This document shows, in pieces, positions 16,834-47,599 of a stretch of DNA of 64,000 bases. The DNA is from a virus. A program made the translations under genes and the position numbers. Location of the stretch: positions 1-64,000 of IMG/VR virus record IMGVR_UViG_3300009433_002011; one strand, given 5' to 3'. The notes beneath the pieces are model-generated. The model was given only the letters and a program-made list of their open reading frames with translations, did no database searches and was not told where the DNA came from. Positions within the stretch are counted from its first letter, which is position 1, and the number at the start of each line of letters is the position of its first letter.

Positions 16834-17618
16834 TGATTCTAGGTATATCCGGAAAGAAGCAAGCAGGTAAAACAACCGTTGCTAATATAATCCACGGCGA
16901 AGTGTTGCTTCAAAAAGAAATGATCGGTGATTATAACATAAACGAACAAGGGAAGTTGTTGATCAAAACAAGTAACTCTAAAGGTCAGGAAGGTTGGGGT
17001 GAGTTTGAAATAGAAAGAAAGGACGAGCAGTTCATAGAGTATGCTCATTACAACATGTGGCCTAATGTAAAACTATATAATTTTGCCGATTCGTTAAAAG
17101 ACATGTGTATAAATCTATTTGGGTTTACATACGATCAAGCCTATGGTACAGACGAACAAAAAAATCAAACACTTTCCGATATAAGATGGGAAGATATGCC
17201 AAGGCATCAAAACATGAAGATAATGAAGAAAATGCCAGTAGACTCAAAAAAGAGTTGGGGCTGGAGAGAAGGGGAAATGACAGCGCGAGAATTCATGCAG
17301 TTTTTTGGAACTGATATTATGCGTAATATTCATCCAAACGTATGGACCAATGCTTGCTTAAACAAAATCACAAAAGAAGGTAGCGAACTTTCTATTGTTG
17401 CAGATGTAAGATTTCCTAACGAAGTAGAAGCAATTAACAGGGCGGGGGGTAAAGTCGTAAGACTAGAAAGAGACGTACACGAAGACAAGCACGATAGCGA
17501 GACTGCGCTAGACGTAGACAACTATAATCACGCTAATTTCTGGAGTGTTCTTGATAACGGTAATATGACAATTGGCGATACTATAATAGAAGTCAAAAAA
17601 ATATTGGAGCAGATTTAA
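16833..17618 (+). CDS. deoxynucleoside monophosphate kinase
   Basis: 261 residues. P-loop ISGKKQAGKTTVAN at the N-terminus, then FADSLKDMCINLFGF, the substrate-binding segment typical of phage dNMP kinases (T4 gp1 type), and VADVRFPNEVEAI later on. It phosphorylates dNMPs released from host DNA or made by the dUTPase route. The ATG at 16833 is taken as start; a TTG one codon earlier adds nothing. Overlaps the primase stop and is followed by the nuclease gene at a TAATG junction. Confidence 0.9.
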   Translation: MILGISGKKQAGKTTVANIIHGEVLLQKEMIGDYNINEQGKLLIKTSNSKGQEGWGEFEIERKDEQFIEYAHYNMWPNVKLYNFADSLKDMCINLFGFTYDQAYGTDEQKNQTLSDIRWEDMPRHQNMKIMKKMPVDSKKSWGWREGEMTAREFMQFFGTDIMRNIHPNVWTNACLNKITKEGSELSIVADVRFPNEVEAINRAGGKVVRLERDVHEDKHDSETALDVDNYNHANFWSVLDNGNMTIGDTIIEVKKILEQI

Positions 17619-18655
17619 TGATAGTAACATATATAAGATCTTCAAGTTATAATAATTACGACTTCTGTCAAATGCAGTACTTTCTAACCTATGTTTTGGG
17701 GCATAGGTCTGATAGTAATAAAAAAGCAGACTTAGGAACTATGGCCCATAAGGTGATGGAAATTCTTGCTGGACTAAAAAAGTTTCAGCAGGATAACCCT
17801 AAAAGAAAATATTTAGTTATCGAGGACGATAAATGCGGTAAGATTAGAATCACAAAAGACGAACTTTACACGGACGAGTTCGTGGAAAGAATGTGTGAAT
17901 TAGCAGTCACAGATTATGCAGAGGGATCAATTCATAACTTCACAAGGGGAGACAGGAAGGTTGTTAGAGATACTGTATTCACTTTTCTTAATCACTCAGA
18001 CAGTCTTTTTGACCCAAGACAGAGAAACATTTACCACCCAGAAGCGCAGTTTGACATTCCTATTGAAGAAGATTGGGCTAAGTTTGAATACGAAATAGAA
18101 GGAAAAAAAGTCTCTGGTCAACTAGCAATCAAGGGAACTATCGACTTGACAACTTTGATAGGAGATGATACAATTGAAGTCATTGACTGGAAAAGCGGTC
18201 GTAGGATGGACTGGATAACAGGAGAGGTAAAAGACTATAAAAAGCTAGAACAAGACCCTCAACTGTTACTGTATTTCTATGCCATATCTAAACTATACAA
18301 AGATTTTCCTAATAGGATTATGAGCATTTTCTTTTACAAAGACAAAGATGGTAAAGTTGACCCAATGCCTTTTAGTATATGTCTTGGGCCGGAAGATGAG
18401 AAAAGATTCTTAAAAATGCTTAGAAAACAGTTTGAGGGAATAAGAGACAATGTATCTCCTAAACCGTTAAAGGAGGACAGGAGTCACTGGAAATGTACGA
18501 AGCTGTGTCATTTTTACAAAAACAACTGGGAAGGTACAGACACTCCTATCTGCATCCATGTTGGCAACAAGCTAAAAGCAGACGGAATGAAAAAGACAGT
18601 AAAAGATTGCACTAAAAAAGGTTTTTCCATAGGATATTACGAGGCACCGGGATGA
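17618..18655 (+). CDS. Cas4/AddB-like PD-(D/E)XK nuclease, probably iron-sulfur
   Basis: 345 residues. The N-terminus has the RecB-family signature SSSYNNYDFCQMQYFLTY, including the cysteine that in AddB and Cas4 is the first ligand of a [4Fe-4S] cluster, then LGTMAHKVME (GxxxH helix). The catalytic core is VIDWKSGRR with an upstream Asp. Near the C-terminus, CTKLCHFY and later PICIH supply the other cysteines of such a cluster. The enzyme would resect DNA ends, 5'-3' in Cas4-like relatives, feeding the RecA-like protein. No CRISPR genes are near. Confidence 0.85.
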   Translation: MIVTYIRSSSYNNYDFCQMQYFLTYVLGHRSDSNKKADLGTMAHKVMEILAGLKKFQQDNPKRKYLVIEDDKCGKIRITKDELYTDEFVERMCELAVTDYAEGSIHNFTRGDRKVVRDTVFTFLNHSDSLFDPRQRNIYHPEAQFDIPIEEDWAKFEYEIEGKKVSGQLAIKGTIDLTTLIGDDTIEVIDWKSGRRMDWITGEVKDYKKLEQDPQLLLYFYAISKLYKDFPNRIMSIFFYKDKDGKVDPMPFSICLGPEDEKRFLKMLRKQFEGIRDNVSPKPLKEDRSHWKCTKLCHFYKNNWEGTDTPICIHVGNKLKADGMKKTVKDCTKKGFSIGYYEAPG

Positions 18656-19527
18656 GAGAAATAAATATAGTAGGACATGAGGGTGAAAGTGGTTTTGAAA
18701 GAGATATGTTTGACCACCTATATCACGGCGTAAAATTAAATGAATATAGCTATGACGACGACCCCTCTAAAATAGATAGGCCAGTTTTGGAATATTCTCA
18801 CATGGGATTTGGTATCCCTGATGAAGTTGCTAATTTTGCAGAAAAATTACCTAATGGATATCTCATATATCATAAGTCTAACGAGTTCCCATATCAACAA
18901 TATCCTCAATTTATTCAACAAAAAGCAAATTTATATAAAGATGCCATCCATGTCTTTAGACCTAATTGGATGCCGAGCTTCGATTTACCTAATGTAACAT
19001 TTATGCCATTATTTTGGGGAAAAGGTCATGGAGAAATGAGAGAGCCTACAAAAGAGACAAAAAAGTTTAAAACTGCCATGATAGGCGAATTGAAGTCTGA
19101 CAGAGCAGAAGTTCTAGAAGTAATGAAGAAAATGGAAGATCATTTTCATTATTTTAACAAGGGTTGGCTTTCTCAAGACATGATAACACCAGAACAATCT
19201 ATGGATGTGTATGCAAATTCAGTAATTTGCCCCTGTCCTATGGGCAATGTCCACCCAGAATGTAATAGATTTGCAGAGATTTTAAACTCAGGAGGCATAC
19301 CGGTCTTGAAAGAGTACTGGAATCGCGACTGGCACTGTAGAATTTATGGATTTGATTCTCCAATTCCGTTTGTTAAATCGTGGAATGAGCTTCCAGAAGT
19401 GTATAATAAGGTGATAAAAGAAGGTGTTTACAACTTTGCTATGAGGCTGCACCAGTGGTGGTACGCCAAGAGAATAGAAATCAGGGATAATTTTCAGAAT
19501 ATATTGCTGGAGAAGATAAATGTTTAA
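18652..19527 (+). CDS. exostosin/GT47-like glycosyltransferase
   Basis: 291 residues. The C-terminal half carries the exostosin-like pattern: SVICPCPMGNVHPECNRFAE followed by ILNSGGIPVL, where Glu and the GGIPV strand line the sugar-nucleotide pocket of a GT-B fold. It is separated from the main glycan island by 10 kb and is translationally coupled to the DUF1501 genes after it, so its glycan product may belong with those exported proteins. Donor and acceptor are unknown. Confidence 0.75.
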   Translation: MREINIVGHEGESGFERDMFDHLYHGVKLNEYSYDDDPSKIDRPVLEYSHMGFGIPDEVANFAEKLPNGYLIYHKSNEFPYQQYPQFIQQKANLYKDAIHVFRPNWMPSFDLPNVTFMPLFWGKGHGEMREPTKETKKFKTAMIGELKSDRAEVLEVMKKMEDHFHYFNKGWLSQDMITPEQSMDVYANSVICPCPMGNVHPECNRFAEILNSGGIPVLKEYWNRDWHCRIYGFDSPIPFVKSWNELPEVYNKVIKEGVYNFAMRLHQWWYAKRIEIRDNFQNILLEKINV

Positions 19528-20794
19528 CCATATTCACATCGGACGTAGAGCTTTTCTTCAAACAAGCCTGTTTGCTGCTGCTGGAACCCAGTATGCGCTT
19601 GGCGAGCAAAAGCACTACGAAAGCGTTGAAGGTCAAGCAAAAAGTATGATTTTCATATATCTTCCGGGCGGAATGGCCGCTCAAGAGACGCTTGACCCTA
19701 AAACTGTAGCCCCTCTAGAGTATCGTGGTTCTATGAAAGCGATCAACACCAATGTTGATGGAATTCAGATCAATGAAAGATTTACAAAAACCGCGCAGAT
19801 CATGGATAAATTGACAATTATCAGGAGCATGACGCATGGAGAGGCTGCACACGAACGAGGAACAAACAGTATTTTCACAGGTTACAAGCCTAGTCCTGCA
19901 CTCCAGTATCCTTCTATGGGTTCTGTTGTGTCTCATGAGTTCGGTTCTAGGGATAATCTTCCTGCTTACATTTGTGTGCCGGAAAAACCCAACGAGTTTG
20001 CAGGAACCGGATATTTAAGCAATGCCTACGCTCCGTTTTCTTTGGGTTCTGATCCCGCTTCTGATAAATTCAAAGTTAGAGACTTATCTTTTAATGTGAC
20101 TGACGAACAATTCATCAAGCGTAAAAGATTGCTAGAGATTGTAAACAAAAACATGAATCAGAAAGTTAATTCTGATGCTGTAAAAGCTATGAATACTTTT
20201 TATGAAAAAGCTTACGATCTTGTTGGAGATCAAAAAGCTCAAGACGCTTTTGACATAGAAAAAGAAAAACCAGAAGTACGCGATAGGTACGGACGCAATA
20301 CTGCTGGCGCAAGGATGCTTATGTCCAGAAGATTAGTTGAAGCGGGTGCTAGGTTTGTGTCGATGACTTATGGTAGTTGGGATATGCACCAAAATATCTT
20401 TGGCGGTATAGATTCTCAAGTTCCACCATTTGATCAAGCGTTTGCTGCGCTAATTCAAGACTTGACCGAAAGAGGGCTTTTGGAATCTACCTTGGTTTGT
20501 GTAGTGTCGGAGTTTGGAAGAACTCCTAAAATAAATAAAGATGCTGGACGCGACCACTATCCCAAGGTGTTTAGTTCTATCCTTGCTGGAGGTGGAATTA
20601 AAGGCGGCATGACTTACGGCAGAACTGATGCTACTGGTACAGAGCCAGAAGATAATCCAGTTCCTATTCCACACTGGGCGACAACTATCTATCATCAAAT
20701 GGGAATAAATGCCGATAAAGAACTAATGGCTCCCGGAGATAGACCTATTGAAATTGTAGATTTTGGTGAAGTAATTAAGGATATTATAGTATGA
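19520..20794 (+). CDS. DUF1501 family exported protein, copy 1
   Basis: 424 residues. The N-terminus GRRAFLQTSLFAAAG is a twin-arginine-type leader, so the folded protein should cross the inner membrane. DUF1501 landmarks follow: FIYLPGGMAAQETLDPK, HGEAAHERGTNSIFTGY, SMGSVVSHEFG, GSWDMHQN, and SEFGRTPKINKDAGRDHYP with AGGGIKGG. DUF1501 proteins have an alkaline-phosphatase/sulfatase-like fold, are very numerous in Planctomycetota and have no firmly known substrate. In this copy the usual GGP-S/P-x-x-D segment is GGMAAQE, losing the Asp that copy 2 keeps. Such genes are unexpected in a phage. Confidence 0.9.
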   Translation: MFNHIHIGRRAFLQTSLFAAAGTQYALGEQKHYESVEGQAKSMIFIYLPGGMAAQETLDPKTVAPLEYRGSMKAINTNVDGIQINERFTKTAQIMDKLTIIRSMTHGEAAHERGTNSIFTGYKPSPALQYPSMGSVVSHEFGSRDNLPAYICVPEKPNEFAGTGYLSNAYAPFSLGSDPASDKFKVRDLSFNVTDEQFIKRKRLLEIVNKNMNQKVNSDAVKAMNTFYEKAYDLVGDQKAQDAFDIEKEKPEVRDRYGRNTAGARMLMSRRLVEAGARFVSMTYGSWDMHQNIFGGIDSQVPPFDQAFAALIQDLTERGLLESTLVCVVSEFGRTPKINKDAGRDHYPKVFSSILAGGGIKGGMTYGRTDATGTEPEDNPVPIPHWATTIYHQMGINADKELMAPGDRPIEIVDFGEVIKDIIV

Positions 20795-22023
20795 TTAACA
20801 GAAGACATTTTTTACAACATGCGGGTGGATTAGCGTCTGTATCCGCAGCGTCAACTGCGTTTGGTCAAAAGATCATTGATAGTCGTGAGGATTTAGGAAA
20901 GAACGAGAAGGGCGCAATCCTTATTTGGCTTAATGGCGGTCCTCCGACTATTGATATGTGGGATGTAAAGTTTGGCGCTCCTACTGGCGGTCCAACAAGA
21001 CCTATCACTACAACTGGCGACTTCCAAATCAACGAGCTTATGCCAGAGCTTGCAAAGCAAGGAAAAGATTTTTCTATTGTTAGAAATATGGCAACAAGAG
21101 AAGCAGACCACATGCGAGGTCGCTACTATATGCACACAGGCTTCAAGCCAAATCCAAATATGAGTCACCCATCAATGGGATCTGTAATATCTTACGAACT
21201 ATCTCAAGATAGAGACTACCTAGAAATACCGCCATTCTTTTCAATTAGTACAGGAAGTATTGGTGGCGGGTTTCTGGGTTCTGCTTGGAATCCTTTTGTT
21301 GTAAGTTCAAACGGTCAAGTTAGAAACCTTGGCGATTCTGTAGATAACGAAAGGATGCAAGCTCTTGCTGCGATAGAAACAGGTTTTGTAAAAAGAAGCA
21401 ACAGTGACATGGCAAAGAGTCATATGAAAATGTTGCAACAAACATTTAGACTTAATACAAGCCCACAAATGAAAGCCTTAAAACCAACAGACGAACCTAA
21501 GAATGTAATTGACGCTTACGGCGAGACAGGATTTGGTAAGGGCGCTTTGATGGCGAGAAGGTTGCTTCAAACAGGTGTGCCATTTGTAGAGCTTGGCTTT
21601 GGCGGTTGGGACTTACACCAAAACACGCACGAAACGTTATCAACTAAACTTCCAGAATTAGACAAGGTAGTTTCTACTCTTATGCTGGATTTAAAACGTC
21701 TTGACATGTGGAACAATACTGCTATCGTTATGATGGGAGAATTTGGTAGAACTCCAAAAATTAATCAAAACGCTGGTCGTGACCATTGGGCAAGATGCTG
21801 GTCTGCATTTGTTTCTGGTGGATTAATTAAAGGTGGTCAAGCGATTGGCTCAACAAGCGACGATGGAAAAGAAATAACTAGCGATCTAGTATACTCGTCA
21901 GAAGATTTAATGATGACAATTTGCAAGTCTCTTGGAATTAGTACAGAAAAAAGTTATACAGCAAAGAATGGTCGCCCAATGAGAATTGCGAACAACGGCA
22001 AAATAATAGAAGGTTTGGTGTAG
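20791..22023 (+). CDS. DUF1501 family exported protein, copy 2
   Basis: 410 residues. Twin-arginine-like leader NRRHFLQHAGGLASVS, then the same order of motifs as its neighbour: IWLNGGPPTIDMWDVK with the Asp present, ADHMRGRYYMHTGF, SHPSMGSVISYEL, GGWDLHQNTHE, GEFGRTPKINQNAGRDHWA and SGGLIKGGQ. It starts inside the stop of copy 1 (ATGA), so the two are made together. The two proteins are clearly related but differ over much of their length, so the duplication is old or each was acquired separately. A role as exported hydrolase of sulfate or phosphate esters is inference from the fold. Confidence 0.9.
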   Translation: MINRRHFLQHAGGLASVSAASTAFGQKIIDSREDLGKNEKGAILIWLNGGPPTIDMWDVKFGAPTGGPTRPITTTGDFQINELMPELAKQGKDFSIVRNMATREADHMRGRYYMHTGFKPNPNMSHPSMGSVISYELSQDRDYLEIPPFFSISTGSIGGGFLGSAWNPFVVSSNGQVRNLGDSVDNERMQALAAIETGFVKRSNSDMAKSHMKMLQQTFRLNTSPQMKALKPTDEPKNVIDAYGETGFGKGALMARRLLQTGVPFVELGFGGWDLHQNTHETLSTKLPELDKVVSTLMLDLKRLDMWNNTAIVMMGEFGRTPKINQNAGRDHWARCWSAFVSGGLIKGGQAIGSTSDDGKEITSDLVYSSEDLMMTICKSLGISTEKSYTAKNGRPMRIANNGKIIEGLV

Positions 22024-22697
22024 TGGATATTATATCAGAATTTAACAAGTCACTTTCTTCAAGGCTAGACTCGGTTGTTTATACAAACAAAACGAGAACT
22101 TGGAAAGTACCAAAAATTATAACCATAGACTGGGAAGGCGTTTTACCAGAGCCTCCTAAAAACACATCTGAAGAAACAAAGAAAGAACTTCAGTACTTAG
22201 AAAAACTAACAAGTAAGTTAGGCTATGAAGAAAAAAATCTAATAGATCTTGTTGACAAAGAACCTTTAGATTTGTATAAACCAATCTTTAGTAAAATGGG
22301 AAAGCCTATCCCAAAGAAAGATTTTGAAAAAATATGGAAGATATCAGAGCCTATTGTAATGAACTTGAAACATAAGTTTAATAGGCCGCGACCCAAGCAG
22401 TTAGGAGATCTTTTAAATTACAAAATAAATGTAACAGAATCAAAAACACACCACACCCCGGCTTATCCATCGGGTCATACCGTTTATGCGGCCTTGGGTG
22501 CTTACCTTTTTTCAGACATGTATCCACATAAATCGTCTGAGTTTTTTAAAATGATAAATCTTGCCGGATTTGCTCGCTGCCTACAAGGTGTCCATTATCC
22601 ATCAGACAACGAAGCGTCTATGGTAATCAGCGGTGCTATTTGGCAAGATGTTAGATATAAATTATTTCCAAATTTACAACATTATAGGAGCAGATAA
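22023..22697 (+). CDS. PAP2-family acid phosphatase
   Basis: 224 residues. The three PAP2/vanadium-haloperoxidase motifs are present: K-x6-RP in KHKFNRPRP, PAYPSGHTVYAA, and ARCLQGVHYPSD, where the usual leading Ser is Ala but Arg, His and Asp remain. There is no signal peptide and no row of membrane helices, so it resembles soluble class A acid phosphatases. The start is a GTG overlapping the stop of DUF1501 copy 2 (TAGTG), which ties it to that cluster. It would remove phosphate from a soluble or lipid-linked substrate such as a polyprenyl or nucleotide phosphate; which one is unknown. Confidence 0.85.
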   Translation: MDIISEFNKSLSSRLDSVVYTNKTRTWKVPKIITIDWEGVLPEPPKNTSEETKKELQYLEKLTSKLGYEEKNLIDLVDKEPLDLYKPIFSKMGKPIPKKDFEKIWKISEPIVMNLKHKFNRPRPKQLGDLLNYKINVTESKTHHTPAYPSGHTVYAALGAYLFSDMYPHKSSEFFKMINLAGFARCLQGVHYPSDNEASMVISGAIWQDVRYKLFPNLQHYRSR

Positions 22698-23368
22698 TGT
22701 CTAATCAAAGAAAAAATTACGTTTTTGACATGGATCAATCCTTTCATTACAATAAAAACTTAGGTTTTGATATGGATGAACATGGATGGACGGAAGAAGT
22801 AACAGAAGAAAATTTTTATATTCCGTCAGAAGCAGAATATGAAGATTTAGGAGAAGAATCAGAAGAGTGGAACTGGGCGGCAGATCGTCCCGGTCTCTGG
22901 GAAAATATTCGCAGAAAAAAAGAGCGAGAAGGTAAAAATTATAAACCCGCCAAGACTGTAAAAGAGGGTAGACCCACCCAAGAGCAACTAAAGAAATCAC
23001 AGTCTAAATATAAATACAAAGATCCTAAAACGGGTCAGGTTTATGAGTATGAACAAAAAGGTATCTATAAAAAAGAAGGAAGAACACTTATTCCTGCTAA
23101 AGCAGAGCTTGATTACACAGAGTCAGCAGAGTATCAGGGTCGAAAAGTAAAGCTTGGCAAACCCTTCAAGACTCCCGGAGGTCCAAAGAAAAGCGCTGTC
23201 TACGTAAAGAATGGTAGTGGAAAAGTGGTCATTGTTAGGTTTGGCGATCCAAACATGAAAATTAAAAAGAATATTCCGGGTCGCCGGAAAAACTTCAGAG
23301 CAAGACATAACTGTAGTAATCCCGGTCCTCGCTGGAAAGCAAGATACTGGTCTTGTAGAGCTTGGTGA
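22697..23368 (+). CDS. phage protein with conserved RARH/ARYWSC C-terminal tail
   Basis: 223 residues. The N-terminal half is acidic, then strongly basic and low in complexity. The last 80 residues carry a tail I recognise as recurring in unrelated phage proteins: VIVRFGDPNMKIKK, a basic RRKNFRARHNC, then WKARYWSCRAW at the end, with two conserved cysteines. Its function has not been settled to my knowledge; it may be a nucleic-acid-binding or virion-targeting tail. TAATG overlap with the phosphatase gene. Confidence 0.72.
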   Translation: MSNQRKNYVFDMDQSFHYNKNLGFDMDEHGWTEEVTEENFYIPSEAEYEDLGEESEEWNWAADRPGLWENIRRKKEREGKNYKPAKTVKEGRPTQEQLKKSQSKYKYKDPKTGQVYEYEQKGIYKKEGRTLIPAKAELDYTESAEYQGRKVKLGKPFKTPGGPKKSAVYVKNGSGKVVIVRFGDPNMKIKKNIPGRRKNFRARHNCSNPGPRWKARYWSCRAW

Positions 23369-24784: not shown

Positions 24785-24813
24785 AAGTAGACCCATGTTG
24801 AAAGGAGATATTG

Positions 24814-26481
24814 ATGACTTGGTTCCCACTCTGTAATTACACGCACTACTCACTGCTGAAAGGGTTTTCTAAACCCAAAGAACTTGCAGCAAAATGCAAA
24901 GATAACGACTTCCGCGCCTGCGGTATCGCTGACTACAAGACTATATCTGGCGCTGTGGCTTTCTATCAAGCTTGCGTAGCGAACAACATCAAGCCAATTA
25001 TAGGCTGTTCGTTCGACAGCTTCACGTTGTTTGCGAAGAACGAAAGAGGATGGTTTGACCTTATAAAGATTGTGTCTTTGTTAGATGAAAATGGAGACTA
25101 CAATGCAAGCGACTTATCTAAAATTTGCAACAAAGGAAACTTAATTGTTCTGGCAGAATCTGCTGCGGATTCGCCAATCAAAAAAAGCTGGTACGAGAAA
25201 AGTAGATGCTTCCAAGACTCGCATTACACAGAATCGGAAGACGCTAATCTACACAGGATTTTGCTTTGCTCTGAAATGAAGACTACTCTTCCCAAATTGA
25301 GAAGGAAGTTCAAAAACAAAGAAGATTTTCCTAACAAAAAGTTTTTTGACTACTCTCATTTTTTTGTTCCAGATAAAACTGGAGCAACAGAAGCTATGCT
25401 TGAAGACCCAGTAGGAACACAGAATCTTGACGATATATACGATCAGTGTGAAGATTATAACATTCTAAGCAAACCTATTCTTCCTAAGTTTGATACCCCT
25501 AACGGAGAGTCAGAAAAAGATTATCTAAGGACACTGGCTAGAAGAGGATGGAAAAATCTACTCGCAGAAAAAATCACAGAAGAAGAAGGTCGTCAAAAGT
25601 ATGGAGACAGATTCAGGAAAGAATTTGAAGTTATTGAAGAAGCAGATTTGTTTGGTTACTTTCTTATTGTTCGTGATATTATCAAGTATGCGGTAGATCA
25701 AGGTTGGATGGTAGGTCCGGGTCGTGGCTCTGCTGCTGGATGTTTAATATCTTACCTGATTGGAATCACACAAATTGATCCGATTGAGTTTGACTTATTG
25801 TTTGAGCGCTTCTATAATAGTGGCAGAAACACCAAAGACAATGTGTCACTTCCAGATATCGACATAGATATCCCCGGCAAGAAAAGAGATAAGATCATAT
25901 CGTATATCAAAGATAAATACGGACACGGCAATGTTAGTCAGATGGTGACGTTCGGTAGACTACAGGGGCGTAGCGCAATCAAAGAAATCCTACGTGTAAA
26001 CGAAGCGTGTGGGTTTAGCGTGATGAACGAGATTACAAAATATATTCCAGACGAAGCGGCTATCTCTGATCAACTATCACAGATGGACGAGGAAGACAGA
26101 TCTATTATTAGGTGGGCGTTGCAAAACAACGAACAAGACTTGTATGATTATTGTCACATAAATGAGAAGGGTTACTTAGAAGGTGACTATGCAGAATATT
26201 TTGAACAAGCGATCAAGATAGAGGGTACGCTGAAAACTCAAGGCAAACATGCTGCGGGTGTTGTTATATCAGCAAACAAACTATCAGAAGTTTGCCCTAT
26301 GGTAAACTCAAAAAGTAGTGATGAAAAGATAGCAGGACTAGAAATGGCAGACTTAGAGGCACTTGGTCACGTTAAGTTTGACGTTCTAGCAATTAACCTG
26401 CTGGACAAACTTATGTATATTGACTACATAGTAGCCAATCCAGATTCCGTAAAAATGAAGGAAAATAATGTCGAACCGTGA
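24814..26481 (+). CDS. dnaE: DNA polymerase III alpha subunit, N-terminal half (PHP and palm)
   Basis: 555 residues from the ATG at 24814, well spaced from AAAGGAGA; a TTG one codon earlier is less likely. The PHP domain comes first, but its metal site is degenerate: the usual HxH before YSLLxG reads NYTH and the later DH reads DY (GIADYKTISGAVAFY). The palm follows with GPGRGSAAGCLISYLIGIT, LPDIDIDIP with two catalytic Asp, GRLQGRSAIKEILRV, and VKFDVLAINLLDK with the third. The protein stops about 25 residues later, where intact DnaE passes into the fingers; the rest is encoded at 27611. The end overlaps the exonuclease start. Confidence 0.93.
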   Translation: MTWFPLCNYTHYSLLKGFSKPKELAAKCKDNDFRACGIADYKTISGAVAFYQACVANNIKPIIGCSFDSFTLFAKNERGWFDLIKIVSLLDENGDYNASDLSKICNKGNLIVLAESAADSPIKKSWYEKSRCFQDSHYTESEDANLHRILLCSEMKTTLPKLRRKFKNKEDFPNKKFFDYSHFFVPDKTGATEAMLEDPVGTQNLDDIYDQCEDYNILSKPILPKFDTPNGESEKDYLRTLARRGWKNLLAEKITEEEGRQKYGDRFRKEFEVIEEADLFGYFLIVRDIIKYAVDQGWMVGPGRGSAAGCLISYLIGITQIDPIEFDLLFERFYNSGRNTKDNVSLPDIDIDIPGKKRDKIISYIKDKYGHGNVSQMVTFGRLQGRSAIKEILRVNEACGFSVMNEITKYIPDEAAISDQLSQMDEEDRSIIRWALQNNEQDLYDYCHINEKGYLEGDYAEYFEQAIKIEGTLKTQGKHAAGVVISANKLSEVCPMVNSKSSDEKIAGLEMADLEALGHVKFDVLAINLLDKLMYIDYIVANPDSVKMKENNVEP

Positions 26482-27145
26482 TATAATTGTTTTTGACTTT
26501 GAGACAGGCGGTAGAAATCCAGTTACATGTCAGCCAACTCAGTTGGCGGCGATAGCTTTGGATGGAAGAAACTTTAGACTCAAAGGTGAGTTTAATAGCA
26601 AGATTTGGGCAGAAACGGACGACGAAAAGGCCACAAAGAAAGGTCTTGGACCTATTGAGGATGGCGCACTAAAAGTTACAGGACAAACCAGAGAAGAAAT
26701 AGCAAAAGCACCTAAACCAAAAGCTGTATGGAAAAAGTTTTGCGCTTTTGTAGACAAGTATAACTGGAAGGGAACTTCGTTCTTCGCACCCATTGCTGCT
26801 GGATATAACATTTTAGGATACGATATGATTATCGTAGACAGACTCTGTAAAGAATACGGACCTTGGGACGACCAAAGACAGAGACAGAAGCTGTTTCATC
26901 AAATTCATAAAATCGACATGATGGACAACTATTATATGTGGACAGAGGGAGATCCTAGTGTAAAATCTAGGAGCATGGACGCGATTAGAGACAGGATGGG
27001 TATGTCAACAGAGAATGCTCACGATGCCTTACAGGACGTAAAGGATACGGCAAATCTAATGATTAAGTTTATGAAGACCCATCGCGCTGTATATAGAAAC
27101 CTGAAACTTGAAAAAGCATTTGCGGATGGGAATACTTACCTATGA
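26468..27145 (+). CDS. DnaQ-like DEDDh 3'-5' exonuclease
   Basis: 225 residues. Exo I VFDFETGG (Asp and Glu), Exo II AGYNILGYDMIIVD (Asn and Asp), and Exo III HDALQDVKDTANL with the His-x4-Asp of the DEDDh class. It would be the proofreading nuclease of the phage polymerase, consistent with the loss of PHP metal ligands there. It starts 14 bases inside the polymerase N-half gene and ends in an ATGA overlap with the HNH gene, so the proofreader is translated between the two polymerase halves. Confidence 0.92.
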   Translation: MSNRDIIVFDFETGGRNPVTCQPTQLAAIALDGRNFRLKGEFNSKIWAETDDEKATKKGLGPIEDGALKVTGQTREEIAKAPKPKAVWKKFCAFVDKYNWKGTSFFAPIAAGYNILGYDMIIVDRLCKEYGPWDDQRQRQKLFHQIHKIDMMDNYYMWTEGDPSVKSRSMDAIRDRMGMSTENAHDALQDVKDTANLMIKFMKTHRAVYRNLKLEKAFADGNTYL

Positions 27146-27618
27146 ATTTAAGACAGCTAACTTTGTTTGAATTACCAGAAACTGCAAACCATGAAGTTTC
27201 TGATAAAGATGTAATTGATGTCAGTAAGATAAAAGCTAACTTTATTGGCGACAAAGAGATGCATAGAAAATCCAACATCATGATTTCTAAGTTAAACTCT
27301 ATGAATTCTGGTAAATATTTCCTTCATAAGAATACTGGTGATTTTCCGTATGTAATAGGAACAAAGGGTAAAAAGTTATCCATAAGCACTACTAGAAATC
27401 AGTACCCCTGCATAGGTATGGGTGGAGTTGTAATAGCTATGCATAGATTAGTAGCATTAGCATTTGTAGAAAATGATGACACTTCTAAAAAACTAGAAGT
27501 AGATCACATAAACGATGATAAGTCAGATTACAGAGTAGAAAACTTACAGTGGGTAACAAACGGTTTTAACTCTAAAAAAGCTCAACAGAAAAGAAAAAGT
27601 AATAAAACTAATGATTGA
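27142..27618 (+). CDS. HNH endonuclease inserted in the split polymerase locus
   Basis: 158 residues. The HNH core is in the second half: MHRLVALAFVEND, then LEVDHINDDKSDYRVENLQW with the metal-binding His and Asn, as in homing endonucleases of the HNH_3 type. The first 50 residues have no recognised domain. It lies between the exonuclease and the polymerase C-half gene and overlaps both by a few bases. Endonucleases of this type often spread by cutting alleles that lack them, so it may be the agent, or a relic, of the event that split the polymerase. Confidence 0.85.
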   Translation: MNLRQLTLFELPETANHEVSDKDVIDVSKIKANFIGDKEMHRKSNIMISKLNSMNSGKYFLHKNTGDFPYVIGTKGKKLSISTTRNQYPCIGMGGVVIAMHRLVALAFVENDDTSKKLEVDHINDDKSDYRVENLQWVTNGFNSKKAQQKRKSNKTND

Positions 27619-29170
27619 TTATAACGATGAAAAGACTTGGGATCTTTTTAAAGAAGGTAGAACTAAAGGTGTCTTTCAACTAGAAAGCAATCTTGGACGC
27701 GCTTGGTCCAAAAGACTACAACCTACCAACCTTGAAGAACTTGGAGCATTGATCGCTTTGATTAGACCGGGATCGCTAAAAGCGATAACAGATGGCAAGT
27801 CTATGACTCAGCACTACGTTGATAGAAAAAGCGGCTTAGATGTAATTAAGTATTTGCATGAGTCGCTAACAGACGTATTGCAGTCCACCAAGGGTGTGTT
27901 GATTTATCAAGAACAGTCCATGCGCATTGCTCAAGAGCTTGCAGGTTTCAACCTACAAGAAGCAGACGTGCTTCGCAAGGCGATTGGAAAGAAGAAAGCA
28001 GACCTCATGGCTAAAGTTAAAAAAGACTTTCTAGAGGGGTGTGTGACGCAAGCAATTGTAGACGTAGAAACCGCAGAAGAAATTTTTGGGTGGATTGAGA
28101 AGTCTTCTAGGTATTCGTTTAATAAGTCTCATGCAATTTGCTACGCAGAAAATTCTTATAAGAGCGCTTGGTATAAAGCTAATCATACAAAGCAATTCTT
28201 TCTGTCATACCTAACCTATGCGAATGAAAAGCAAGATCCGCACCAAGAAATATACGAGCTTGTTTCTGAGGCAAAGCTGTTTGACATTGAAGTAAAAATT
28301 CCTAAGATCAGTTTGTTTAATAGAACTTTTGGCGTTTATAAGAGCAATGTTTACTTTGGTCTTAAAGATATAAAATCATTAACTGGTGTAAATGGCGACA
28401 AGGTTATAAACGCAATATCTGAAGCCTGCGCAACTACAAGTAAAAAGCCTAAGCACTTTACTTGGTTGGATGTACTTGTATATTTATCGCCTAAAATAAA
28501 TGCAACAGCCTTTAAAGCTCTGTGTTCTGTAGGGTTCTTCTCTACGGAATCTATTGGCGTCACTAGAAATAAAGCTCTTTACGAATATCTAATATTTAAA
28601 AATCTAACAAAGGCAGAATTGAAGTGGCTGACATTAAATTACCCTGTGCGAAAGTGGAATAATCTTTACGATGCTTTCAAAGCACTATCGCCCACAAAGA
28701 AAGAAGGCGGTGGGACAAGCAAGGTTGATAGAAAGCAAGTCATAGAAAATGAGATGTTTTTCATAGAAAATCCTCCTTACGATCTTTCCGACGACCCAGA
28801 GTGGATCGTTGAACAAGAAAAGAAGTTTTTGGGATGCCCCATATCACTATCTAAGGTAGAAGCATCTGACACTTCTCACTCTAACACTACGTGTAAAGAG
28901 ATTTTAAATGGCAAACACGGCAAAGATATTTGTATAGTAGCAAATGTAAGCAGGTTGCAGAAGTATAAATGCAAAAAAGGCAAGAGTAAAGGCAAGGATA
29001 TGTGTTTTCTAACACTAGAAGATGAAAGCTGCTCTATTGACAACGTGGTAGTCTTTCCAGAGACCACAGAGAAAACTAAATACATACTAGACGAAGGTCT
29101 TAACTTATTATTCTGTGGAGAGGTAGAAAAAGATGGCTCATTTATTATTAATAAAATACATGAAATATAA
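27611..29170 (+). CDS. dnaE: DNA polymerase III alpha subunit, C-terminal half (fingers to OB fold)
   Basis: 519 residues. The start MIDYNDEKTWDLFKEGRTKG aligns with the point in DnaE where the fingers begin (usually LDDPKTYELL..GDTTGVFQLES). GVFQLES, the ALIRPG loop, YQEQSMRIAQELAGF, LRKAIGKKK and SRYSFNKSHA follow in order. The last 100 residues are an OB-like fold. The SFNKSH segment, where cyanobacterial DnaE carries its split intein, is uninterrupted, so this split is of another kind. It should pair with the 24814 product into one active enzyme. The start overlaps the HNH stop by eight bases. Confidence 0.93.
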   Translation: MIDYNDEKTWDLFKEGRTKGVFQLESNLGRAWSKRLQPTNLEELGALIALIRPGSLKAITDGKSMTQHYVDRKSGLDVIKYLHESLTDVLQSTKGVLIYQEQSMRIAQELAGFNLQEADVLRKAIGKKKADLMAKVKKDFLEGCVTQAIVDVETAEEIFGWIEKSSRYSFNKSHAICYAENSYKSAWYKANHTKQFFLSYLTYANEKQDPHQEIYELVSEAKLFDIEVKIPKISLFNRTFGVYKSNVYFGLKDIKSLTGVNGDKVINAISEACATTSKKPKHFTWLDVLVYLSPKINATAFKALCSVGFFSTESIGVTRNKALYEYLIFKNLTKAELKWLTLNYPVRKWNNLYDAFKALSPTKKEGGGTSKVDRKQVIENEMFFIENPPYDLSDDPEWIVEQEKKFLGCPISLSKVEASDTSHSNTTCKEILNGKHGKDICIVANVSRLQKYKCKKGKSKGKDMCFLTLEDESCSIDNVVVFPETTEKTKYILDEGLNLLFCGEVEKDGSFIINKIHEI

Positions 29171-29552: not shown

Positions 29553-31244
29553 ATGAGAAAGAAAAGAATTCTGTTTTGCAGCGAAGCTACCTTTCTAAAC
29601 ACTGGGTATGCAACTTACACCAGAGAAATTTTGAACTACCTTCATGGTACAGGTAAGTATGAAATTGCTGAGATGGCATCCTATGGACAAAAAAACGACC
29701 CAAGAGCGGCTAACATTCCGTGGACATATTACGGCGTAGCGCCAAATACAGAGTGTGAACCAAAAGCATCCGAAGAAGAAATAAATTCTTACAACTCAAA
29801 TCCTGTCAATCAGTTTGGTGGATGGGCATTTGAGCATGTTTGCTTAGATTTCTTACCAGACTTCGTATGCGATATTCGTGACTTTTGGATGCTTGATTTT
29901 GCGGAAAGATCTCCATTTAGACCGTTTTTTAAATGGGCTGTTATGCCAACAGTAGACGCAAGGCCGCAAGCTAGGCAATGGATTGCCACTTATGCAAACG
30001 CAGATGCGTGTCTGACATATTCAGATTGGGCTGGCGGCGTTTTAGAAGATCAATCTGGAGGTAAGATTAATTACCTTGGAAGCGCCCCTCCTTCTGCGCA
30101 CCCTGCCTACGCACCCGTTCCAGATAAGAACGCCCACAAGCTCTCTATGGGAATTGACCCAGACTATAAAGTAATCGGAACAGTTATGCGCAACCAAAGA
30201 CGTAAACTGTATCCAGACTTATTCGAGGCATTCAAGTTATTCTTAGATAAGTCAGAAAATAAAAAATACTACTTATACTGTCATACATCTTATCCAGACT
30301 TGGGTTGGGATATACCAGAACTTCTACATCAGCATGAATTAGCTTCTAATGTACTGTTTACATACATCTGTCCAGAAACAAAAAAACCTTTTGTCTCTAC
30401 GTTCAGAGGGGCGATAGCGCAATCTCCTTACACCGGAAAATGGGGTTGTACACTATCTAATGTAAAAAATGGTTTGAGTTATGAAGATTTATCAAATGTA
30501 GTAAACTGTTTTGATTTGTATGCTCAATACGCAAACTGTGAGGGATTTGGACTACCTCAAGTAGAAGCTGCGGCTTGTGGGGTTCCCGTCTGCGGAACTG
30601 ATTATTCTGCTATGGAAAGTGTTTTACGGAAGTTAGGCGGATACCCCATCAAGCCAGCGGCTTTGTATAAAGAGCTAGAAACTGGGTGCTTACGCGCAGT
30701 TCCAGATAATGAAGCGGCAGCAGACTTTTTCTTGGATTTCTTTGACGAATCCGACGAATGGCGACTTATTAAAGGCGAACGAACAAGAGAGAAGTTTGAA
30801 GAATATTATCAGTGGCACCTGAGCGGTTCTGTTTGGGAAAAATATTTTGACGAGACAGAGCCAGTGTCTTTCGAGCATGGTTGGGCTTCTCAACCAAGGC
30901 TGCATCAACCCGCAGAAAAAATTAAACTTCAAGGCAATGAAAATCATTCTAGTTTATGTCAATGGCTTATAGCAAATGTCTTAGGAGATCAAAGTAAACT
31001 GAATACATATTTTGAATCAAGAATGACCAGAGACTTGATTTATCAACAGACCACACAATCAACTGGAGGTATGTACTTCAATGAATCTTCTGCTGCTTTT
31101 GATGGTCAAAACCATAGACAGCCTTTTAACTTTGATTCTGCTTATGATCAAATGAAAATGCAGTGCGATCTAAGAAATCACTGGGAACAAGCTAGAGTTC
31201 AAAGAATTCAGCAGATTTCTCAACAACAGGTGACGAATGTATAA
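29553..31244 (+). CDS. GT4-type glycosyltransferase with long C-terminal extension
   Basis: 563 residues, larger than a typical GT4 enzyme. The N-terminal domain opens with RILFCSEATFLNTGYATYTR. The donor domain contains VIGTVMRNQRRKLYPDL and CEGFGLPQVEAAACGVPVCG, with the E-x7-E pair and the G-V-P-V strand. After about residue 450 a glutamine-rich, probably flexible tail of over 100 residues follows. First gene of the glycan island, probably transcribed from the SSB promoter. Confidence 0.85.
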   Translation: MRKKRILFCSEATFLNTGYATYTREILNYLHGTGKYEIAEMASYGQKNDPRAANIPWTYYGVAPNTECEPKASEEEINSYNSNPVNQFGGWAFEHVCLDFLPDFVCDIRDFWMLDFAERSPFRPFFKWAVMPTVDARPQARQWIATYANADACLTYSDWAGGVLEDQSGGKINYLGSAPPSAHPAYAPVPDKNAHKLSMGIDPDYKVIGTVMRNQRRKLYPDLFEAFKLFLDKSENKKYYLYCHTSYPDLGWDIPELLHQHELASNVLFTYICPETKKPFVSTFRGAIAQSPYTGKWGCTLSNVKNGLSYEDLSNVVNCFDLYAQYANCEGFGLPQVEAAACGVPVCGTDYSAMESVLRKLGGYPIKPAALYKELETGCLRAVPDNEAAADFFLDFFDESDEWRLIKGERTREKFEEYYQWHLSGSVWEKYFDETEPVSFEHGWASQPRLHQPAEKIKLQGNENHSSLCQWLIANVLGDQSKLNTYFESRMTRDLIYQQTTQSTGGMYFNESSAAFDGQNHRQPFNFDSAYDQMKMQCDLRNHWEQARVQRIQQISQQQVTNV

Positions 31245-31875
31245 TGCTCAAGCATGTCAAGATATATTTGTTGACAAAATTCTTAATAAAACAGAAGGAT
31301 TTTTTGTTGATATAGGCGCAGGTACAGGCGGCCTACCCACTCACGCTGCGGGTTTCTATAGTAATACTTATTATTTTGAGACATTTAAAAACTGGAAAGG
31401 TATAGCTATTGATTACGATAGTAGTTGGTGGTCAAGAGTCAGTCCGTTAAGATTAGCAGATTGTATATGTGTAGATTTACTAGAAAAAAACATAAACGAA
31501 GTGCTAGACAAGTCAAATTGTCCTACAGAAATTGATTATCTTTCTATAGACGTAGATGATGCGCAAATGAAAGTGTTTAACGATTTTGATTTTGATAAAT
31601 ACAAATTTAAAGTGTTGACTCTGGAGCATAATTTATTTCAATCAGATCCTAATTGTGGACAAAATAGAACAGAGGAACACAGGAAGAATATTATAAAAGA
31701 ACATGCACACTACAGAAAGACACTATCTAAACATGGATATAAATTACTTTGGGGAAATGTGTCTTTGGAAGGATACGGCCCTGTAGAAGATTGGTTTGTA
31801 GACGAAGAAACATTTGAAAAAAATAAAGATATTCAAAAAGAATATGCTAATTGCTTGGAGACAATGAATATATGA
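31237..31875 (+). CDS. FkbM-like SAM-dependent methyltransferase
   Basis: 212 residues. GFFVDIGAGTGG is the SAM-binding motif I; SNTYYFETFKNWKGIAIDY is typical of FkbM-type enzymes, which methylate hydroxyls on sugars or polyketides; IDYLSIDVDDAQM is the later acidic strand. It would cap or tune sugars in the glycan made by its neighbours. It overlaps the preceding and following genes by eight and four bases. Confidence 0.78.
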   Translation: MYNAQACQDIFVDKILNKTEGFFVDIGAGTGGLPTHAAGFYSNTYYFETFKNWKGIAIDYDSSWWSRVSPLRLADCICVDLLEKNINEVLDKSNCPTEIDYLSIDVDDAQMKVFNDFDFDKYKFKVLTLEHNLFQSDPNCGQNRTEEHRKNIIKEHAHYRKTLSKHGYKLLWGNVSLEGYGPVEDWFVDEETFEKNKDIQKEYANCLETMNI

Positions 31876-33008
31876 AAGTTTTATACATAGGACACTATAA
31901 AGAGTTTGGTGGCTGGTCACAAGCTGCAATAGACAACATTTTGGCTTTAGATAAGATTGGCGTAGATGTTGTTTGCAGAAATGTCACACTAACTCAGGAT
32001 AGGAAAGACGTTGACAAAAGAATTTTAGCGCTAGAATCAAAAAGCACAGAAGGTTGTAATATTTGTATTCAACACGTCTTACCGCATCATATTGTGGGTT
32101 CAGATGGTTTTGATAAAAATATTGCCTTTGTTGAAACGGAAACTCTAGATATTACTCATTTACCTTGGACTGAATTTTTAAAACAGGTAGATCAAGTCTG
32201 GGTTGCAAATAAAGACTCCGAAAAAGCGATAAAAGGAGATGGAATAGAAAACGTAAAGATTGTACCACATACTTGCGATACCGCTAAATACAAAAAAAGA
32301 TATACAGAACTTTCTATTCCAGATACAGAAAACTGTTTTAAGTTTTACTATATTGGCGACGTTAACGACAGAAAAAATATAGAGTCTATACTTACTTGTT
32401 TCTTTAGTGAGTTCGATAGATCAGAAAAAGCTTCTTTAATATTAAAAATAAACAAATTCGGATATTCTCCAGAGCAAATATCAGAGCATGTTGATAAAAT
32501 TTCAACAAAGGTAAAATCCTCCCTTAGAATGCATCAAGATGTTAATGAATACAAAAAGCTCGTCATCATCTCTGATAAAACATCCGACGAAGACATATGT
32601 TCTATTCATCAAAACATGGATTGTTTCTTATGTCCTACCCACGGCGAGGCTTGGTCTATTCCTTCTTTTGACGCTATGGCTTTTGGCAACACTCCCATCT
32701 GTAGTAATTTTGGTGGACCAAAAGAGTTTATAGATAAATCAGACTGGAAAACTGGACATTTAGTGGATGGCGCTTTTTCTGTTTGTAAATGTTCAGATGC
32801 TGCTTTTCCAGACATCTTTACGGGTAGAGAATACTGGTTTCAACCATGCGAAATGGGTACTAGAAAGCAAATGAGACAGTATTTTGATTCTTGGAATAAA
32901 AATCCTATTATGTATAAAAACAGAAATCAAGCAGCAGGACTAAAAAGAGCAGAGATGTTCTCTTACGAAAACATTGGAAAATTGATGAAGGATATTATTA
33001 ATGAGTAG
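31872..33008 (+). CDS. GT4-type glycosyltransferase
   Basis: 378 residues from the ATG at 31872 (KVLYIGHYKEFGGWSQA), which overlaps the previous stop; the ribosome site is the TTGGAGA about 12 bases upstream. The donor domain has the strand FKFYYIGDVNDRKN followed by a helix and, later, CPTHGEAWSIPSFDAMAFG with the conserved acidic pair, then TPICSNFGG. Assigned to transfer of a sugar onto the island's glycan; specificity unknown. Confidence 0.82.
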   Translation: MKVLYIGHYKEFGGWSQAAIDNILALDKIGVDVVCRNVTLTQDRKDVDKRILALESKSTEGCNICIQHVLPHHIVGSDGFDKNIAFVETETLDITHLPWTEFLKQVDQVWVANKDSEKAIKGDGIENVKIVPHTCDTAKYKKRYTELSIPDTENCFKFYYIGDVNDRKNIESILTCFFSEFDRSEKASLILKINKFGYSPEQISEHVDKISTKVKSSLRMHQDVNEYKKLVIISDKTSDEDICSIHQNMDCFLCPTHGEAWSIPSFDAMAFGNTPICSNFGGPKEFIDKSDWKTGHLVDGAFSVCKCSDAAFPDIFTGREYWFQPCEMGTRKQMRQYFDSWNKNPIMYKNRNQAAGLKRAEMFSYENIGKLMKDIINE

Positions 33009-33987
33009 TCAGACAGCTTCTATTATAAGCAAAGCCACACAAAAGAAAGATAAATACAATATTTTAACTTTTGATACACATGAAAGATACCAGTACCAAC
33101 AAGCAAAGACTGGTCATAATTTCTTTTCTTTTAGGTATGACGGATGTAAAGAGTGGGATAACAACTATTCAGAACTTCCAGAAAACTATTACGTTATGCC
33201 TAAAAATTCTATTATGACAAGTATAGATTTTGATTTTATTTTATCTCATAGTAAATTTGGTCAATTTCAAGCAGCGCACAGTATTAATCAAAGACTTGGT
33301 TTACCCATTGTTTCTCTTGAGCATACCCTACCTATAGACAACTGGCCGGAAAGTCAGTTGAATAATTTTAGATCTATGGCTGGTAATATTAATGTATTTA
33401 TATCAGAATACTCTGCTGGCAAATGGAACATGAACTGCGACAATAGAGTTATCCATCACTCAGTAGACACAGAGCTTTTTAAAATACATGACACAGAAAA
33501 GAATGGAAAAGTTTTAAGTGTTGTAAACGATTTTGTAAATAGAGATTATTGTTGTAATTATTCTGGCTGGAAAAGAATTACAGAAGGACTACCAGTTAAA
33601 CTGGTGGGTAACACTCCGGGGCTTTCCAAGCCAGCAAAAGACATCCATGAGCTAGCATCAGAGTATCAGGAAGCGTCCGTTTTCTTAAATACGTCTACAG
33701 TAAGCCCTGTGCCTACATCGCTCTTAGAGGCCATGTCATGCGGTTGTGCGGTTGTGTCTACTGCTACATGTATGATACCAGAAATAATAAAGAATGGCGT
33801 TAATGGATATATCTCAAACAACGAGCAAGACTTGAAGGGGTACGCCAAGGAGCTACTTGAAGATCCTTCGCTAGCAGCTAAGATGGGACAGGCAGCAAGA
33901 GAAACAATCTTAGAAAAGTTTTCAGAAGATAAATTTATAAACAATTGGAACGAAGTATTTGACCTCGCATACGGGATGAAAAAATGA
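33001..33987 (+). CDS. GT4-type glycosyltransferase
   Basis: 328 residues. The donor-binding half is typical: VLSVVNDFVNRD, GLPVKLVGNTPGLSKP, then VFLNTSTVSPVPTSLLEAMS followed by CGCAVVSTATCMIPEII with the E-A-M-x-x-G pattern, and NGYISNNEQDL. The N-terminal domain contains HTLPIDNWPE. Overlaps neighbours on both sides (TAATGA and ATGA). Confidence 0.85.
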   Translation: MSSQTASIISKATQKKDKYNILTFDTHERYQYQQAKTGHNFFSFRYDGCKEWDNNYSELPENYYVMPKNSIMTSIDFDFILSHSKFGQFQAAHSINQRLGLPIVSLEHTLPIDNWPESQLNNFRSMAGNINVFISEYSAGKWNMNCDNRVIHHSVDTELFKIHDTEKNGKVLSVVNDFVNRDYCCNYSGWKRITEGLPVKLVGNTPGLSKPAKDIHELASEYQEASVFLNTSTVSPVPTSLLEAMSCGCAVVSTATCMIPEIIKNGVNGYISNNEQDLKGYAKELLEDPSLAAKMGQAARETILEKFSEDKFINNWNEVFDLAYGMKK

Positions 33988-34406
33988 AATTACAAATTAT
34001 AGAAGATGAGTCACAAAAAATTGAAGGCTTTGATACTGTTTTCCTAAACCAGCAAAATCAAAATCTAAATCTAGATAATGTTGCTAATAATTCTTGTGAG
34101 TTAATAATAGCTAAGGGCGCTTTAGATAACACACCTAGTCCAACAGATTTTTTAAATTTGATATGCTCTAAGTTACGATCAGGAGGATCTGTCGTTGTCT
34201 CTGGCGTAGAGCTAAGATGTTTCTTTAAAAACGTTATAAACGGAATGACAGATGAAGATAGCGCGTCTGCAATTATTGGAAAAAGCCTTTCTTTGTCAAC
34301 AATTGATTCAGTAAAAAACAAGCTTAGGTCTTTTGGGTTATTTGTCAAGTCTTCTACAATCAACGGAGCTTTTTATGAAGTCACAGCAGAAAGAAGAGCG
34401 TCTTAG
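33984..34406 (+). CDS. methyltransferase-like protein lacking the SAM-binding motif
   Basis: 140 residues. The segment LIIAKGALDNTPSPTDFLNL then ICSKLRSGGSVVVSG resembles the second half of a class I methyltransferase (the 'LEHVPDP..FL.E..RLLKPGG' strand and helix). The N-terminal SAM-binding glycine loop is missing, so it is either a shortened, inactive relative or a partner protein. It overlaps the next gene by 32 bases in another frame. Confidence 0.55.
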   Translation: MKLQIIEDESQKIEGFDTVFLNQQNQNLNLDNVANNSCELIIAKGALDNTPSPTDFLNLICSKLRSGGSVVVSGVELRCFFKNVINGMTDEDSASAIIGKSLSLSTIDSVKNKLRSFGLFVKSSTINGAFYEVTAERRAS

Positions 34407-37212: not shown

Positions 37213-37221
37213 GAGAAAGCT

Positions 37222-42426: not shown

Positions 42427-42428
42427 CA

Positions 42429-46607: not shown

Positions 46608-46614
46608 AAATAAC

Positions 46615-46644
46615 TTGACGAAAGTGTATTTCCTAAACTATAAT
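46615..46644 (+). promoter_or_regulatory. sigma-70-type promoter for the fucose-synthase-like gene
   Basis: TTGACG (46615-46620), 18-base spacer, perfect TATAAT (46639-46644), then AAGGAGG ribosome site (46651-46657). The 57-base gap is one of the few real intergenic spaces in the window. Confidence 0.82.
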
Positions 46645-46664
46645 AATAGTAAGGAGGACTATAT

Positions 46665-47597: not shown

Positions 47598-47599
47598 TT

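Follow-up and report, generated by a model that had tools for sequence, protein, structure and literature searches.

One to four DUF1501 proteins with export leaders in some members of a group of uncultured tailed phages whose hosts are most likely Planctomycetota

Genes of the DUF1501 family (Pfam PF07394) are hugely multiplied in Planctomycetota, together with those of the DUF1549/DUF1553 families, and no function for them was found in the literature searched. The domain has been annotated before in an uncultured Caudovirales phage (BFVD entry A0A6J5M742, "DUF1501 domain-containing protein"), and a 61-aa Pseudomonas phage protein bears the DUF1501 name in a passage of PMC5418858. Here we describe two tandem genes, DUF1501-A and DUF1501-B (A and B below), from the first 64,000 bases (the window) of the 99,388-base virus record IMGVR_UViG_3300009433_002011, together with their relatives in other uncultivated phages. 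Our tentative reading, to which we assign a probability of about 0.4, is that these host-derived proteins, exported by the twin-arginine translocation (Tat) system, act on the envelope or periplasm of probable Planctomycetota hosts, in company with host DUF1549/DUF1553 partners.

A occupies positions 19520–20794 of the plus strand and encodes 424 aa, with a predicted alkaline-phosphatase-superfamily fold and a Tat leader whose arginines, R9-R10, are encoded at 19544–19549. B (20791–22023, plus strand) encodes 410 aa, with leader arginines R4-R5 at 20800–20805, and is followed by a PAP2/class A acid-phosphatase-like gene (22023–22697, plus strand; 224 aa, GTG start, no clear export signal). The sequence ATGA is common to the stop of A and the start of B, and TAGTG to the stop of B and the GTG start of PAP2. 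The strands, open reading frames (ORFs) and coordinates of the claimed genes match the sequence, and the DUF1501 profile yields 368 bits for A and 303 bits for B against a cut-off of 27, in agreement with the overlapping run of two DUF1501 genes and PAP2 reported in the preliminary description of this DNA, which was made from the sequence alone. Neither A nor B matched a PHROGs v4 family at E ≤ 0.001, A having one chance-level match (0.0071), and no NCBIfam family was found at E 0.1 for A, B or the further phage copies C and D, described below.

The twin-arginine leaders noted in the same description are nearly universal in the phage copies. R9-R10 of A is invariant in 21/21 phage rows of the alignment and in 80/80 rows of phage and bacterial sequences together, and an RR pair precedes the DUF1501 domain in 170 of the 171 distinct phage copies (a raw count from a position test), the sole exception, L108, starting at a contig end. 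A looser Tat pattern, which fitted 164/171 phage and 107/114 bacterial starts, was set aside because it also fitted 198 of 683 later sequence windows.

The record comes from a genuine tailed phage, as seen from its replication genes and a tape measure protein of 2464 aa; PHROGs identified DnaB, primase, UvsX-like recombinase, ribonucleotide reductase, PhoH and DNA polymerase. The region is repeated in two further contigs, L003 and L004. In L004, a contig of 162,690 bases, all genes compared show 99–100% protein identity to the window, as they do in L003, except that PAP2 is split there into two pieces (96% and 67%; L003 12504–13177) by what looks like a frameshift, the gene being broken or perhaps misread. 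Because the same slot and gene order recur in many contigs, including L003 and L004, a chimeric assembly of bacterial and phage DNA is ruled out, and the DUF1501 set is indeed virus-encoded, in keeping with the synteny and with the replication and tape measure genes.

Searching IMG/VR with A confirmed 33 of 38 pattern-matching stretches, and searching it with B confirmed all 25, corresponding to 24 loci; an alignment of 21 phage copies retrieved 506 stretches, 487 of which encode a relative (perhaps not all of them phage), and the best 80 were kept. Every locus in the following counts of gene position was recruited through A or the A/B alignment, and loci were not made unique by contig, either here or in the exonuclease-based counts given below (L309–L312 look alike). 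Full-length A was present in 78 viral loci, 50 of them with at least 6 kb of downstream sequence, and B was found there in 40. A further DUF1501 copy, C, precedes A by no more than 3 kb in 42/73 loci, and still another, D, completes the order C-A-D-B in those examined loci that have all four. In the window, the slot is bordered upstream by a PD-(D/E)XK exonuclease-like gene (17618–18655, plus strand) and downstream by the N-terminal part of a DNA polymerase III alpha-like gene (24811–26481, plus strand), and in 18/18 loci with both genes in view every DUF1501 copy lies between them. The common gene order extends to phages with primases about 45–56% identical to that of the window. Nineteen large viral records, picked for carrying A, contain two to four DUF1501 copies in 18 cases and a single copy in one; a 20th record counted alongside is a 1.4-Mb SAR202 metagenome-assembled genome (MAG) with locus L113, and the presence of DUF1501 in 20/20 is a selection effect, because the records were found through A.

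In six loci (L072, L073 and L109–L112), the flank of A shows none of the other module genes; they were kept in the counts and in the tree, and some of them could be contigs of bacteria wrongly assigned to viruses. One 32-kb contig (IMGVR_UViG_3300030330_003793) has two A copies, L007 and L009, 98% and 94% identical to that of the window and located near its opposite ends, which is either a duplication or an assembly fault. In L069 (11267–11668 and 12969–13439), L092 (2721–3212) and L113 (7432–7833), small proteins rich in Cys or Pro, with starts of the export type as judged by eye, are interspersed with the DUF1501 genes or close to them; the two from L069 yielded no Pfam match.

A tblastn search of 50,697 GenBank phage records found no match to A (E up to 1e-5), to B or D (0.01), or to PAP2 (1e-5); C had a single weak match (E 7e-4; 31% identity over 27% of the query), to a fecal contig of 6.9 kb that carries no annotation. 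The phages of this group are only distantly related to the GenBank phages searched: the 1199 records matching the window polymerase were all less than 60% identical to it, with the 20 listed at 25–33%. The preliminary description had asked whether such clusters are common in known phages: they are common in uncultivated contigs, but not in these GenBank records.

We sought the relatives of the phage proteins in bacterial genomes. A scan with phage A proteins gave 574 confirmed stretches, and the best 80 of them, with 59–66% identity, comprise, by record title, 76 from Planctomycetota, one from Verrucomicrobiota, one from an unnamed bacterium and two in the SAR202 MAG; within these 80, Planctomycetota relatives reach 66% identity to A. 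The other copies were searched for in Planctomycetota alone, where relatives of B at E 1e-100 or better were present in 11/199 genomes (best 55%), those of D at E 1e-70 in 11/149 (best 60%), and those of C at E 1e-60 in 3/149 (best 40%). On a plain reading of these similarities, A, B and D would come from different Planctomycetota subfamilies, and the hosts are most likely Planctomycetota.

In bacteria, DUF1501 genes are accompanied by other multiplied genes. At bacterial loci L143 and L137, the A relative has a PPC-domain gene and a DUF1549/DUF1553 gene behind it, and a DUF1549/DUF1553 gene precedes the B relative at L194. With B as the tblastn query, four Planctomycetota genomes gave 77, 80, 168 and 170 matches; 21 DUF1501 genes were listed among the 77 matches of genome G021, and every one of these is located within 5.8 kb of a DUF1553 gene, against a background of 8.6% of random positions within 7 kb of such a gene. 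DUF1549 (PF07583) was detected in 0/20 phage-type records, many of them fragments, in a search run without a planctomycete control, and DUF1553 (PF07587) in 0/19 viral records, many of them again fragments, the planctomycete control genome yielding 72 matches.

The model of A built from 80 sequences (predicted local distance difference test, pLDDT, 87; predicted template modelling score, pTM, 0.86) superseded an earlier one with pLDDT 69. Foldseek matched it to sulfatases, LtaS and phosphatases with low TM-scores, while the top 50 rows from VIA-align gave Z of 17–20 over 230–275 residues to nucleotide pyrophosphatase/phosphodiesterases (NPPs), PafA and sulfatases, with 9–15% identity. The modelled fold is alkaline-phosphatase-like. 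In weak profile matches (E 0.5; local E 2.1e-4), E331-F332-G333 aligns with the D-H-G of sulfatases and of an NPP-like protein; E331-F332 is invariant in 80/80 aligned rows, so that the usual D-H metal pair reads EF, and EF-G/S-R is present in 171/171 distinct phage copies. D288-x-H290 comes close to an earlier D...H pair, though in the global alignment alone. Phosphatases and sulfatases have a Ser, Thr or Cys nucleophile nine residues before a TG motif. H111 is invariant in 80/80 aligned rows, and a His nine residues before TG is found in 156/171 phage and 93/114 bacterial copies, although profile alignment of that half failed, and the six relatives shown for nucleophile spacing were picked by the motif itself; we infer that H111 may occupy the nucleophile register. 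The C/S-x-P-x-R sulfatase signature four residues before TG occurs in 0/171 phage and 0/114 bacterial distinct copies. The structural comparison with sulfatases suggested in the preliminary description thus supports a common superfamily fold, but the signature is missing and the DH pair is replaced by EF, so that a role as sulfatases finds no support. Since the putative active-site residues are common to both, the phage proteins would be expected to act like bacterial DUF1501.

We estimated dN/dS with a Nei-Gojobori script in nine relatives, A being measurable in four of them (L004 has no synonymous difference in A). The values for A were 0.012 in L005, 0.022 in L008, 0.036 in L012 and 0.035 in L013. 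Those for DnaB were 0.102, 0.018 and 0.041 in L005, L008 and L012, saturated in L013, and 0.091 in L088; those for B were 0.068, 0.034, 0.093 and 0.093 in L005, L008, L012 and L013, and 0.131, near saturation, in L063; and PAP2 gave 0.116, in L008 only. A is therefore under strict, helicase-grade purifying selection. Its identity is 98–99% in L005 and L008, against 58% and 87%, respectively, for their primases, and it is among the most conserved proteins compared. In L005, dS is 0.56 for A but 1.37–2.47 for B, DnaB, the recombinase and one small gene, with all others saturated; this low dS hints that A may have been exchanged between phages.

In the scenario that we propose, DUF1501 proteins would be made during the replication phase and would leave the cytoplasm, already folded, through the host Tat system. 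In the periplasm, the phage copies could replace or outnumber host DUF1501 beside the host DUF1549/DUF1553 partners, and some polymer of the envelope or periplasm would then be processed differently, in the phage's favour, the possible gains being that superinfection is blocked, the envelope is loosened or nutrients are freed. A bolder version, doubtful but worth keeping in mind, is that a private multi-copy exported set commandeers the host DUF1549/DUF1553 system as swapped subunits or decoys, constituting a periplasmic takeover route. If true, such a route would rest on planctomycete machinery with a non-canonical phosphatase-fold site, kept by one part of the phage group and missing from its sisters.

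A number of observations weigh against the envelope-directed reading. The step involving DUF1549/DUF1553 partners is conjectural, and no activity of a DUF1501 protein was found in the open-licence PubMed Central literature searched. The captured genes are the sole evidence for host placement, the phage exonuclease was detected in 0/392 Planctomycetota genomes at E 1e-20, and two loci with phage gene order, L113 and L118, are binned in the SAR202 (Chloroflexota) MAG OSU_TB57; we read this as misbinning, but they could mark a SAR202 host instead. The phylogeny gave a divided answer on the relation to bacterial DUF1501, for which the preliminary description had proposed such a comparison. In a tree of 131 rows (68 representing 227 from phages and 63 representing 119 from bacteria), built by a quick method and with long branches, the phage label needs nine changes, at least seven of them forced by starred branches, but approximately unbiased (AU) tests did not reject a single clade uniting every phage A (p-AU 0.637) or, likewise, one uniting every phage B (p-AU 0.327). 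The tree hints at repeated capture of A and of B, but each of them may form one clade in phages, and the idea was not retained. It should also be kept in mind that many viral records are fragments, and that B was not found within 6 kb downstream in 10/50 A loci (L017, L018, L019, L026, L061, L072, L109, L110, L111 and L112); in L061, B is upstream of A instead, and for L017 and L019 a B copy exists at another place in the record (L048 and L047, respectively).

To the same side belongs part of the result from a sample chosen independently of A. The phage exonuclease as query confirmed 314 of 317 stretches, the best 80 of which were kept, and 29 of these had at least 6 kb downstream. DUF1501 is present in the slot in 15/29 loci, with one copy in five, two in six, three in three and four in one, in the DNA in view; in the other 14, the slot has no DUF1501 while the surrounding order is kept, and none was found across the whole record in 13 of these 14. 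The record of L311 (G423:C1:63-1247) has a DUF1501 copy (430 bits) near the record start, its exonuclease slot being empty of DUF1501. Identity to the window exonuclease is 69–100% in the 15 loci with DUF1501 and 64–68% in the 14 without, but the split follows no simple distance rule, because A-bearing phages with about 50–59% exonuclease identity exist. With 14/29 slots and 13/14 whole records lacking it, DUF1501 appears dispensable for some relatives. The next gene after PAP2, a recurrent neighbour coding for a phrog_7595-type protein (p7595; 22697–23368, plus strand; function unassigned), was found in 14/14 of the loci without DUF1501, and PAP2 in 12/14 (not in L296 or L306). On the basis of this sample, only some members of the phage group possess the DUF1501 block, PAP2 and p7595 are more widely established in the slot, and DUF1501 is ruled out as a core gene of the group. 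Because PAP2 persists in sister phages without DUF1501, the A-B-PAP2 run of the window is a DUF1501 pair beside an independent PAP2.

The alkaline-phosphatase-superfamily fold, nearest to NPPs and PafA, would also suit nutrient acquisition, with the exported proteins of the infecting phage freeing phosphate (or sulfate) from esters in the periplasm or outside the cell, and both the PhoH gene of the record and the accessory distribution (15/29), as expected of an auxiliary gene, are consistent with such a role. However, the D-H metal pair aligns with E-F in 80/80 rows and in the EF-G/S-R of 171/171 copies, a His rather than Ser/Thr/Cys probably lies near the nucleophile register (exact spacing in 156/171), and several copies of different subfamilies are present, all of which make this role rather unlikely. 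Superinfection exclusion or receptor removal, in which the exported proteins destroy or mask the phage receptor on the infected cell, would account for the export leader, the several diverging copies and their location in the replication region, not among tail genes; we consider it unlikely, given that A is highly conserved (98–99% in L005 and L008), unlike a fast-changing receptor system, and that there is no known receptor.

A lysis or release aid, loosening a host envelope polymer ahead of the burst, appears quite improbable: Tat leaders and the small export-type proteins seen by eye near the DUF1501 genes of L069, L092 and L113 would fit it, but no lysis gene was recognised beside the block among the window proteins scanned, and the exonuclease-polymerase slot is unusual for late genes. 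That the genes are an artefact or passive passengers, either bacterial DNA joined to phage or functionless, is barely credible, even though copies are 55–66% identical to bacterial proteins and half of the exonuclease-chosen relatives have no DUF1501, as the same slot is occupied in many contigs, including the sisters L003 and L004, and the dN/dS of A is 0.012–0.036. Present evidence does not separate the nutrient, receptor and lysis explanations from the envelope-directed reading.

The PAP2 protein scores 51.5 in Pfam against a cut-off of 27.2 and matches 7f18 with E 2.5e-8. It has all three motifs of PAP2/class A acid phosphatases, K-x6-RP, PSGH and R-x5-H-x3-D; its score against the NCBIfam equivalog PhoC is 23.8, far under the cut-off of 430. 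Periplasmic class A acid phosphatases carry a secretion signal. Here, no strongly hydrophobic N-terminal stretch was found: within the first 45 residues, hydropathy averaged over 15 residues peaks at 0.43, compared with 0.70 for A and 1.03 for B by the same measure. The description of the enzyme as soluble fits, and no clear export signal was seen; it is probably a separate, cytoplasmic acid-phosphatase-like enzyme present in the slot independently of DUF1501. PAP2 occurs within 6 kb in 15/35 A loci and in 15/19 large A-bearing viral records, and in the window its end shares TAATG with p7595.

Upstream of A, and overlapping it by 8 bases, is an RXYLT1_C-type glycosyltransferase-like gene (18652–19527, plus strand), placed here only in the window's own lineage. 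It passes the Pfam cut-off for RXYLT1_C (37 vs 27) and remains below that for Exostosin_GT47 (13.9 vs 33.4), so that a glycosyltransferase assignment is retained and an exostosin identity is not. The gene is found directly upstream of A in 3/73 full-A loci, the window included, and also in L020, where A is cut. The four-gene module initially proposed is accordingly ruled out, as the glycosyltransferase rarely adjoins A and PAP2 also occurs in sister phages without DUF1501.

Elsewhere in the window, two pieces make up the DNA polymerase III alpha-like gene (24811–29170); a DnaQ-like gene and an ORF of HNH type, each assigned by eye, separate them, and the HNH-type ORF had no match in L008 or L012. 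A long gene run at 29553–48037, by eye coding for glycosyltransferases, methyltransferases, epimerases and an aminotransferase, is perhaps a glycan-making cassette. A thioredoxin-domain protein at 5170–5904 has a start that reads as a hydrophobic stretch, and across the end of the window, at 63308–77848 of the record, a single 4846-aa ORF on the minus strand adjoins tail genes.

Overall, the data suggest that a group of large, uncultured tailed phages may work on the host periplasm or envelope in a manner not yet studied. Phages with DUF1501 beside sisters without it in the same slot provide a compact natural comparison for learning the role of DUF1501, and phage DUF1501 is perhaps a marker for planctomycete viruses. 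A multi-copy phage DUF1501 set without the bacterial neighbours was not found in the open-licence PubMed Central literature searched.

Comparison with described systems shows where the phage set stands. A0A6J5M742 is likewise a viral DUF1501 protein with a related predicted fold, but is 489 aa long and only 14% identical. Phage-ZRK32 is a phage of a cultured deep-sea planctomycete that also has auxiliary genes, but it is 21.9 kb in size, with glutamine amidotransferase and amidoligase among its genes, and the main text of its report does not mention "DUF" (PMC10945688). Planctomycetota DUF1501 proteins resemble the phage copies in family score, Tat leader and all putative active-site residues, with up to 66% identity to A, and differ in having DUF1549/DUF1553 neighbours, which were not found in the phage records searched. 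NPPs and PafA alkaline phosphatase have the same fold at 9–15% identity, with a D-H pair where A has E-F, and type I sulfatases have the superfamily fold and a weak profile match around the D-H/E-F strand, but also the C/S-x-P-x-R signature that DUF1501 copies lack. The phoA-type auxiliary genes of cyanophages, thought to release phosphate during infection, are similar in adding a host-derived exported phosphatase-superfamily protein to a phage, but belong to another family, whereas here there are several copies and a different probable host. Host-derived exported viral proteins are already known as a kind, and it is the multi-copy orphan DUF1501 set that appears to be the new part.

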